The notes beneath the pieces were generated by a model that worked only from the letters and a program-made list of their open reading frames with translations, was not told the DNA's origin and did not search any database. From the IMG/VR virus record IMGVR_UViG_3300030085_000871, positions 1 to 35,838 of that record: a stretch of DNA of 35,838 nucleotides, one strand, 5' to 3'. The position numbers were made by a program, and so were the translations under genes. The DNA is from a virus. Each line of letters opens with the position of its first letter. Position 1 is the first letter of the stretch. This document shows, one piece after another, positions 32,786-34,906 of this stretch.

Positions 32786-33143
32786 GGACGATTTACAGCG
32801 TCAGGTGGCTTCCTGGCTTGATGTAGCGCTGCCTGATGGGTGTGTTTACCACCACAGCCCAAACGAAGGTAAGCGGCATATCAACTACATCAATCGGTTA
32901 AAAAAGATGGGTACAAAGTACGGCTGGCCTGACCTGGAATTGTTTTGTCCTTCTACTGCAACCAAGAGCGGCAACAACGAAGCGATCTTTATCGAGCTCA
33001 AAGCAAAGCGTGGTGTGATGAACGAGAACCAAAGGCGTATGCGCGATCAGATATTAGAGGCTGGTTTTGCTTGGGCGCTGTGTAAGAGCATCGAGGACGT
33101 AACAGAGTTCTTGACGCCATTGGTTAAACTGAAGGTGAAGTGA
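32760..33143 (+). CDS. VRR-NUC domain nuclease
   Basis: 127 residues covering a complete VRR-NUC domain: VYHHSPNEGKRH near residue 22, the catalytic KYGWPDLELFCPS (D of PD), and FIELKAKRGVMNENQ (E-x-K), then a helix with WALCKSIEDV. Stand-alone phage VRR-NUC proteins are structure-specific nucleases, for example for Holliday junctions or flaps. Placement between Cro and the methyltransferase suggests early expression and a role in phage DNA recombination. The stop overlaps the methyltransferase start region (TGATG). Confidence 0.88.
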   Translation: MTSTSNVTEDDLQRQVASWLDVALPDGCVYHHSPNEGKRHINYINRLKKMGTKYGWPDLELFCPSTATKSGNNEAIFIELKAKRGVMNENQRRMRDQILEAGFAWALCKSIEDVTEFLTPLVKLKVK

Positions 33144-34093
33144 TGTTACGGCATGTGGATCTTTGCAGTGGGATAGGTGGATTTAGTCTTGGTTTTGAGT
33201 GGGCAGAGTTAAGTAAACCAGTTTTGTTCTGCGACATAGAGCCTTGGAGCCGACAGATATTAGCAAAGCATTGGCCTGATGTGCCGATAGCTGAAAACGT
33301 AAAGGAGTTAGCAAATGACCCAGATGGACTTGTTCCAGACTGCGACATCATCACAGCCGGATATCCGTGCCAATCATTTTCACTTGCCGGGAAGCGAAGA
33401 GGCACAGAAGATGACCGACATATCTGGCCTTTCATTTTTACCATTATTAAAGGCAAGCGACCCTCTTTTTGCGTTTTCGAAAATGTTTATGGGCATGTCA
33501 CTTTGGGGCTCGACCAAGTGTTATCTGACTTGGAGAGGGAAGGCTACGCCACAAGGCCGTTCATTGTTCCAGCTTGTGCCACGGACGCACCTCACAGAAG
33601 AGATAGACTCTGGATTATCGGAAGAAATGTGGCCGACACCGACATCTTCAACAGGGGGGCCATCGAAAAATCCAGAAAACCCAAGAGGCAAACATGGGGG
33701 CAATCCTCTAGCAACAGCAGTAGCGATGTGGCCGACACCCAGAGTGACAGGACAGGAAAATCTAGACACGCTGATAAAACGCAAGGGTCTACAGAAAGCT
33801 CTGCAACACAACCTTACGGCAGCAGTACAAATGTGGCCGACACCCAGAGCAAGCGAGTACAAAGACACGGGGCCAGTGGGCAGCAAGAGCCACACTCACA
33901 TGCAAGAGAAAAAGTATTTATGTGCAGCAGTGAAAGACCCAGAGCAACCACTTGGGATGTTGAACCCCCAGTGGGTCGAGTGGCTCATGGGATACCCAGA
34001 AGGGTGGACAGACTTAGAGGATTAGGAAACGCCATAGTGCCACAGATAGCGATGCGTATCGGGCAGACAATTAAGGCAACGTATGATGCCTGA
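33143..34093 (+). CDS. C5-cytosine DNA methyltransferase
   Basis: 316 residues from ATG 33143, with GAAGGTGAAG ahead; a GTG at 33140 is possible. Motifs in order: I DLCSGIGGFSLGFE (6-19), IV GYPCQSFSLAG with the catalytic Cys, VI FENVYGH, VIII RRDRLWIIG, a variable target-recognition region, and IX/X VDRLRGLGNAIVPQIA. It methylates cytosine, probably to shield phage DNA. The target-recognition region (about 163-265) is polar with three VADT repeats at 163, 196 and 231, and is dual-coding with the gene at 33315. No cognate restriction gene is present. Confidence 0.93.
   Translation: MLRHVDLCSGIGGFSLGFEWAELSKPVLFCDIEPWSRQILAKHWPDVPIAENVKELANDPDGLVPDCDIITAGYPCQSFSLAGKRRGTEDDRHIWPFIFTIIKGKRPSFCVFENVYGHVTLGLDQVLSDLEREGYATRPFIVPACATDAPHRRDRLWIIGRNVADTDIFNRGAIEKSRKPKRQTWGQSSSNSSSDVADTQSDRTGKSRHADKTQGSTESSATQPYGSSTNVADTQSKRVQRHGASGQQEPHSHAREKVFMCSSERPRATTWDVEPPVGRVAHGIPRRVDRLRGLGNAIVPQIAMRIGQTIKATYDA
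33315..34025 (+). CDS. Gene nested in another frame of the methyltransferase (MWPTP-repeat protein)
   Basis: 236 residues, read one base forward of the methyltransferase frame and entirely inside it. ATG 33315 lies 8 bases after AAAGGAG. The protein has FAFSKMFMGMSLWGSTKCYL and TWRGKATPQGRSLFQL, three MWPTP boxes (residues 105, 138, 173), and ends NPQWVEWLMGYPEGWTDLED. I recall this WPTP/LMGYPxGW pattern in proteins near phage cytosine methyltransferases, so it is likely real; no function is known to me. It may accompany or modulate the methyltransferase. The frame's long open span and ribosome binding site support expression. Confidence 0.75.
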   Translation: MTQMDLFQTATSSQPDIRANHFHLPGSEEAQKMTDISGLSFLPLLKASDPLFAFSKMFMGMSLWGSTKCYLTWRGKATPQGRSLFQLVPRTHLTEEIDSGLSEEMWPTPTSSTGGPSKNPENPRGKHGGNPLATAVAMWPTPRVTGQENLDTLIKRKGLQKALQHNLTAAVQMWPTPRASEYKDTGPVGSKSHTHMQEKKYLCAAVKDPEQPLGMLNPQWVEWLMGYPEGWTDLED

Positions 34094-34735: not shown

Positions 34736-34757
34736 CGACGCAGTCGCAACACAGTAT

Positions 34758-34873
34758 ACACTAAGTGTTAACACTAAGTGCTTACACAGCGTTGTAAATG
34801 AGCATCCATAAAGCTCATTTGCAAAAGCGATAAATACACAAAGAGTTATCACTAAGTGAATACACTAAGTGTA
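34758..34873 (+). promoter_or_regulatory. Four palindromic CACTAAGTG boxes in two 13-base-spaced pairs
   Basis: ACACT-A-AGTG-type palindromes are centred at 34763 and 34776 (pair one) and at 34854 and 34867 (pair two). Each pair is spaced 13 bases, with the pairs 91 bases apart. The fourth is palindromic over 15 bases. Between them lies the hairpin at 34796-34820. Candidate operators for a dimeric repressor, or iterons of a replication origin. Both readings are inference. Confidence 0.7.
34796..34820 (+). other. Hairpin between the box pairs
   Basis: AAATGAGC and GCTCATTT form a perfect 8-bp stem with the 9-base loop ATCCATAAA. There is no U-run, so it is not a terminator. It could be an origin structure or part of looped operator architecture. 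Confidence 0.45.
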
Positions 34874-34906
34874 TATAGGCATCATATTTTTTTGGGAGCA
34901 TAGTCT

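Follow-up and report, generated by a model that had tools for sequence, protein, structure and literature searches.

A nested frame in a phage C5-cytosine methyltransferase gene carries exchanged modules that probably determine target recognition

Two overlapping genes and a 14-base repeat

The window, a 35,838-nucleotide virus record (IMG/VR IMGVR_UViG_3300030085_000871) analyzed at its full length, carries two overlapping genes on the plus strand, here termed alpha and beta. Alpha (33143..34093, ATG at 33143) encodes a C5-cytosine DNA methyltransferase of 316 aa, which matched PF00145 (E 7e-38) and phrog_363 (E 6e-67) and resembled HhaI and HaeIII by sequence and by fold. The PCQ, ENV and motif VIII arginines that mark C5-methyltransferases (PF00145) are all present. 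Catalytic PCQ, within motifs I–VIII, is encoded at 33365-33373 and motif X (GNAIVPQ) at 34025-34045, both on the plus strand. Among the columns that do not vary across 44 alphas are P75, C76, Q77, E113, N114, V115, R153 and R155, together with the motif X residues G295, N296, P300 and Q301. Canonical motif IX was not found in the window's alpha frame; a motif-IX-like sequence, LNPQWVEWLMGYP, lies in beta. Alpha therefore lacks the combination of motif IX and a recognition domain within one chain.

Beta (33315..34025, ATG at 33315, plus strand, 236 aa) lies wholly within alpha, in the reading frame one base ahead. Its assignment draws on phrog_1008 (residues 4-234, E 6e-31) and on the shuffle and codon-position tests described below; searches of Pfam, NCBIfam and PDB sequences returned no match. 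The protein comprises an N-terminal part (33315..33626) read over alpha catalytic motifs IV–VIII, three modules headed by MWPTP, and a motif-IX-like C-terminus (LNPQWVEWLMGYPEGWTDLED, 33960..34022) where the alpha frame reads EPPVGRVAHGIPRRVDRL; both frames are constrained over the N-terminal part and over the C-terminus. A Shine-Dalgarno sequence, AAAGGAG, is situated at 33301..33307 (plus strand), 7 nt 5' of the beta ATG, and 65 of the 66 clade relatives have a similar sequence before beta. All 66 have AAT as the alpha Asn codon that creates the beta ATG. Other Asn codons in the same alphas were divided between AAT (622/1117) and AAC (495/1117).

Structure prediction, which the initial annotation had suggested for both proteins, gave a divided outcome. 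AlphaFold modelled the alpha large domain and motif X helix confidently, the fold matching the large domain of both M.HaeIII and M.HhaI, and assigned residues 194-279 a pLDDT <50 with no secondary structure (predicted disordered). Beta alone reached a pLDDT of 47, too poor a model to show a TRD-like fold.

The 14-mer ATGTGGCCGACACC occurs exactly at 33627-33640, 33726-33739 and 33831-33844, with spacings of 99 and 105 bases, and nowhere else in the window; allowing ≤3 mismatches, six sites were found against 1.6 expected. All three copies read (N/D)VADT in the alpha frame and MWPTP in the beta frame, as initially annotated. For copies 2 and 3 the likeness extends over about 30 nt (90% identical). 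Each copy opens one beta module on the plus strand: module 1 (33627..33725, MWPTPTSSTGG...LATAVA), module 2 (33726..33830, MWPTPRVTGQEN...LTAAVQ) and module 3 (33831..33959, MWPTPRASEYKDTGPVGSKS...).

In the neighbourhood, positions 34754-34878 hold iterated ACACTAAGTGT-like palindromic units, with three copies of about 32 nt, just 5' of a DUF6362-like ORF (34907). Such units may serve as an operator or belong to a replication origin. Near alpha/beta in several unrelated phages lies a phosphoadenosine phosphosulfate reductase-like gene. It is annotated in L002 (2432-3106), L093 (1-533) and L007 (2875-3780), and in L011 (3247-4102) is our reading of an ORF.

Constraint on each frame

Synonymous codons of one frame were shuffled, and an HMM built from other phages (leave-one-out) scored the other frame. 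Window beta scored 186.6 bits, whereas the best of 200 alpha-preserving shuffles reached 92.9; window alpha scored 294.9 bits and the best beta-preserving shuffle 191.7. Every shuffle contained stops. Seven other phages gave the same outcome with a training set that held wrong alpha coordinates for one member (L005), and the window test repeated with the corrected coordinates agreed. Each of the two proteins is more conserved than the other frame requires. The nested frame, which the initial annotation had taken for a gene, is thus a real one, and the synonymous shuffles rule out a frame left open by chance.

Constraint was next resolved by segment, using alpha-protein codon alignments of close pairs, with 4-fold sites taken from 18 independent pairs. 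Differences at alpha codon positions 1/2/3 were.021/.010/.104 before the overlap,.055/.019/.085 over the catalytic overlap,.113/.037/.041 after motif VIII and.010/.001/.154 past the beta end. In the overlap after motif VIII, alpha 4-fold sites differed at 0.024 (95% CI.004-.054) and beta 4-fold sites at 0.122 (.078-.178), the latter like alpha 4-fold sites outside the overlap (CI.08-.24); all 36 of 36 beta-synonymous changes there altered alpha. The module region alone gave 2/238 differences at alpha 4-fold sites and 35/247 at beta 4-fold sites. Over the motif-IX overlap the counts were 5/49 for alpha and 1/48 for beta. This split indicates that only beta matters over the modules and that alpha matters again over the last 60 nt. 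The alpha HMM score over the window modules was equalled by 4.7% of beta-preserving shuffles, and the beta score by no alpha-preserving shuffle.

The exact identity of the repeats had been attributed initially to dual constraint. Among 102 MWPTP sites in 95 related beta genes, the 14-mer itself was the commonest variant (44/102), and the remaining sites comprised 10 further wobble variants. At these sites alpha reads VA, then D/N/Y/H, then T/A/S/P, as set by the beta wobble base. Wherever beta has MWP, alpha must read VA, and the next alpha residues follow the beta wobble bases, so VADT is a passenger of MWPTP. The beta motif, together with codon preference and the common ancestry of the modules, accounts for the repeat and makes dual constraint superfluous; the wobble statistics and the 4-fold sites rule it out, alpha-synonymous sites being frozen over the modules while beta-synonymous sites drift and alter alpha. 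The initial annotation had named conservation of one motif with free variation in the other frame as evidence against its reading, and this is the pattern in homologues, with VADT the motif that varies.

Distribution, modules and division of motifs

Loci were collected by scanning IMG/VR with the window beta (80 loci) and with an Arthrobacter beta (37 more IMG/VR loci). To these were added 80 bacterial genome loci from many phyla and annotated phages of Paenibacillus, Lacticaseibacillus, Synechococcus, Cylindrospermopsis, Bacteroides, Erwinia, Rhodobacter, Escherichia, Klebsiella, Acinetobacter, Mycobacterium, Arthrobacter, Vibrio and Microcystis. One row whose alignment was read in the alpha frame (L103) was left out of the HMM used for the census of 220 loci, and a few loci labelled as fused in that census owe the label to this misframing or to motif IX/X lying in the other subunit. 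The +1 overlap was found in 213/220 loci, a count that includes the window copy (L001), with beta always one base ahead. Median overlap was 723 nt, and the median beta lies entirely within alpha. No stand-alone beta was found among the full-flank loci of the 220, and the four beta-only loci end at a contig edge.

Public records of the locus give alpha only, beta only or both. The annotations of L005, L006, L091 and L103 give the beta frame, under the names hypothetical, methyltransferase or Mte8-like, but miss catalytic alpha; other records do the reverse. A distant clade (L082-L090) has modules headed MWATP, NYPTP and KYPTP and a diverged N-terminal part, and retains the overlap. One Roseovarius assembly holds the pair at five places with identical scores (L150-L152, L155, L156), which suggests that a single prophage is present more than once or that the assembly is at fault.

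Cutting 213 betas at the motif yielded 562 modules with a median of 41 aa, mostly 1-6 per beta and at most eight. The number of MWPTP modules differs between betas, a question that the initial annotation had raised for the repeat. Its suggestion of a recombination-prone module was also borne out, since the repeats bound units subject to gain, loss and exchange. A close relative (L061), 90% DNA-identical to the window in the beta N-terminal region, lacks a 204-nt stretch of exactly two modules (33616..33819, plus strand), with breakpoints in the homology flanking the repeats. Identity to a further relative (L011) was 66% in the N-terminal part, 85% in module 1, 91% in module 2 and 62% in module 3 at the DNA level. 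Module 2 was 89% DNA-identical to L012 and has relatives in L047 and L081. A relative of module 1 lies in a Paenibacillus chromosome (L141), and relatives of module 3 in L061, L035, L013, actinophage-type contigs (L117/L112) and bacterial contigs (L181/L158). L141, L112 and L117 carry these relatives of modules 1 and 3 although their N-terminal parts are only about 40% identical in protein sequence. Here, as in multispecific phage C5 methyltransferases, several discrete modules vary in number and order, and they recur in divergent backgrounds; the modules are putative DNA-recognition units.

Three architectures were distinguished by sequence patterns; 16 loci fell in other bins, several of them on contigs that end early. 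The first, with motifs I–VIII and X in alpha and modules plus motif IX in beta, comprises 165 loci including the window. In the split type (23 loci, including Arthrobacter phage Eesa) alpha stops directly after motif VIII, lacking IX and X, and beta carries modules, IX and X; Brevibacillus L178, whose alpha is without motif X, belongs here by the 220-locus census. In the remaining nine loci alpha has motifs I–VIII, IX and X, its PF00145 match reaching through motif X, and beta has modules only. By these patterns the motif sets of the two chains are complementary, and the modules are read in the beta frame in each of the three architectures. An HMM built from the motif IX–X segment of alpha in the nine-locus type matched Eesa beta (2e-33). 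For type-1 beta C-termini, 179/183 matched motif IX at E up to 10, as did 12 decoys, the matches being short and singly weak. Modules of the nine-locus type gave 68/96 differences at beta 4-fold sites and 8/47 at alpha 4-fold sites (3 pairs, in beta-protein alignments, which lean towards beta); the alpha-protein alignments described above agreed that modules are beta-coding. A search of L104-L140 for a single-chain enzyme that has the modules in its catalytic frame found none.

Proposed mechanism and relation to known systems

The recognition domain of C5 methyltransferases sits between motifs VIII and IX (PMC3404938). Since the motifs of the two chains are complementary, the module array is always in beta, and the array occupies the position of the recognition domain, we infer that beta is the recognition subunit. 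We consider it likely that the locus encodes a two-subunit, M.EcoHK31I-like methyltransferase in which overprinted beta supplies tandem, swappable target-recognition modules. Target recognition, which the initial annotation suggested that recombination could reshuffle, very probably lies with the nested protein rather than with the frame annotated as methyltransferase; beta would thus specify the DNA that the enzyme marks.

In this mechanism, a single stretch of DNA, translated in two frames, would give both subunits of a phage C5-cytosine methyltransferase. Alpha would provide the catalytic domain (motifs I–VIII) and motif X. Beta, started at its own ribosome site inside alpha, would supply the small domain in trans, made up of its N-terminal part, the tandem MWPTP-headed recognition modules and motif IX. 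Over the modules, on the VADT side, alpha would act as a linker, with no detectable constraint beyond staying open so that translation reaches motif X. The 14-base repeats would be conserved module heads giving the homology for module loss, gain and swap. Such swaps should change or widen the set of methylated sequences, probably shielding phage DNA from restriction. A physical alpha–beta complex, one target per module and an anti-restriction benefit are the inferred parts of this proposal.

It is unlikely that both frames code and that recognition instead resides in the VADT region of alpha, with beta adding motif IX only and its modules serving as scaffold. Alpha residues drift at the neutral rate over the modules, where the alpha HMM score is also within reach of beta-preserving shuffles; the region is predicted to be disordered, and alpha of the split type ends before it. 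This counts for more than the constraint on alpha over the motif-IX overlap, or than the placement of the predicted TRD of M.EcoHK31I in its large subunit (PMC3404938), both of which would suit recognition by alpha.

Beta is quite unlikely to be a separate overprinted protein, such as an anti-restriction factor or a regulator, that is merely carried in the methyltransferase gene. The empty Pfam, NCBIfam and PDB searches and the want of a confident fold for beta alone would fit such a protein, but motifs IX and X lie in beta and not in alpha in 23 loci, with the reverse in nine, and beta was never found apart from alpha except where contigs end. That the nested ORF is untranslated, an accident of composition and alpha constraint with the repeat internal to alpha only, is very improbable: biased sequence can contain long +1 ORFs by chance and most records annotate alpha alone, against which stand the shuffle, codon-position and 4-fold tests, the conserved Shine-Dalgarno sequence and ATG, and the phyletic breadth. 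A ribosomal frameshift would unite catalytic part, modules and motif IX in a single polypeptide, and is just as improbable given that beta has its own Shine-Dalgarno sequence and ATG 5' of the modules and a conserved N-terminal part overlapping the catalytic motifs.

Long, fully nested bacterial or phage genes are seldom accepted; beta is backed by about 200 loci, its own ribosome site and segment-wise frame tests. If the two-subunit reading with recognition in beta holds, standard annotation misses either the specificity part or the catalytic part of a common phage methyltransferase. We also lean, with less assurance, towards a broader proposal, that this is a widespread phage and prophage C5 methyltransferase family that keeps its specificity in the swappable modules of an overprinted nested subunit, and in which motifs IX/X migrated between frames at least twice. 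One stretch of DNA would then have held the enzyme's missing parts in either frame, and recombination at the 14-base module heads would retune a phage methylome in a single step and keep the catalytic frame open. Because constraint acts on both frames over the catalytic part and on a single frame over the modules, the locus offers a natural system for gene birth by overprinting. It also makes a modular code testable, in which modules of about 40 residues, with presumed DNA targets, are swapped by phages.

Among known enzymes, the large subunit of M.EcoHK31I carries motifs I–VIII and X and a predicted TRD, and the small subunit motif IX only (PMC3404938). Window alpha (I–VIII and X) and beta (IX) divide the motifs likewise, a likeness that rests on described architecture rather than on sequence comparison; unlike M.EcoHK31I, with its TRD assigned to the large subunit, the window has a recombining module array in beta, the constrained frame of the overlap. 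Lee, Kam and Shaw reportedly described in 1995 that the small M.EcoHK31I gene lies inside the large one in a different frame, which would parallel the nesting of beta. M.AquI, a two-subunit C5 methyltransferase, has motifs IX and X on its small subunit (PMC3404938). The split-type relatives (Eesa and Brevibacillus L178) resemble it, dividing after motif VIII with IX and X in the small subunit; in the window, unlike in M.AquI, where the subunits share the variable region, alpha retains motif X and wholly encloses beta.

M.EaeI is another naturally split C5-cytosine methyltransferase. Bacillus phages SPR, phi3T, rho11s and H2 encode multispecific C5 methyltransferases. Between motifs VIII and IX these enzymes have several recognition modules in succession, about 40 aa each, whose number and order vary. 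The window's phage enzyme likewise has several consecutive modules of variable number and order, but the Bacillus phage enzymes are single chains, whereas here the modules lie in a separate overprinted subunit rather than in the catalytic frame.

The family that includes beta is phrog_1008 ('DNA methyltransferase'), matched by proteins of K1G (1e-55), Shelly (8e-74) and Eesa (gp40, 6e-58); its name is silent on the +1-frame coding of the family within another methyltransferase family, phrog_363. In Escherichia phage K1G both ORFs are annotated. Paenibacillus phage Shelly gp56, annotated as 'g55 internal gene', shows the same nesting and is listed as hypothetical, without function or family context. 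A literature search, whose coverage excluded most subscription journals, found no paper on the phage nested pair. Relative to these systems, what is new here is an overprinted frame with putative recognition modules, the recombining array that they form, the change of frame of motifs IX/X and the wide spread of the arrangement.
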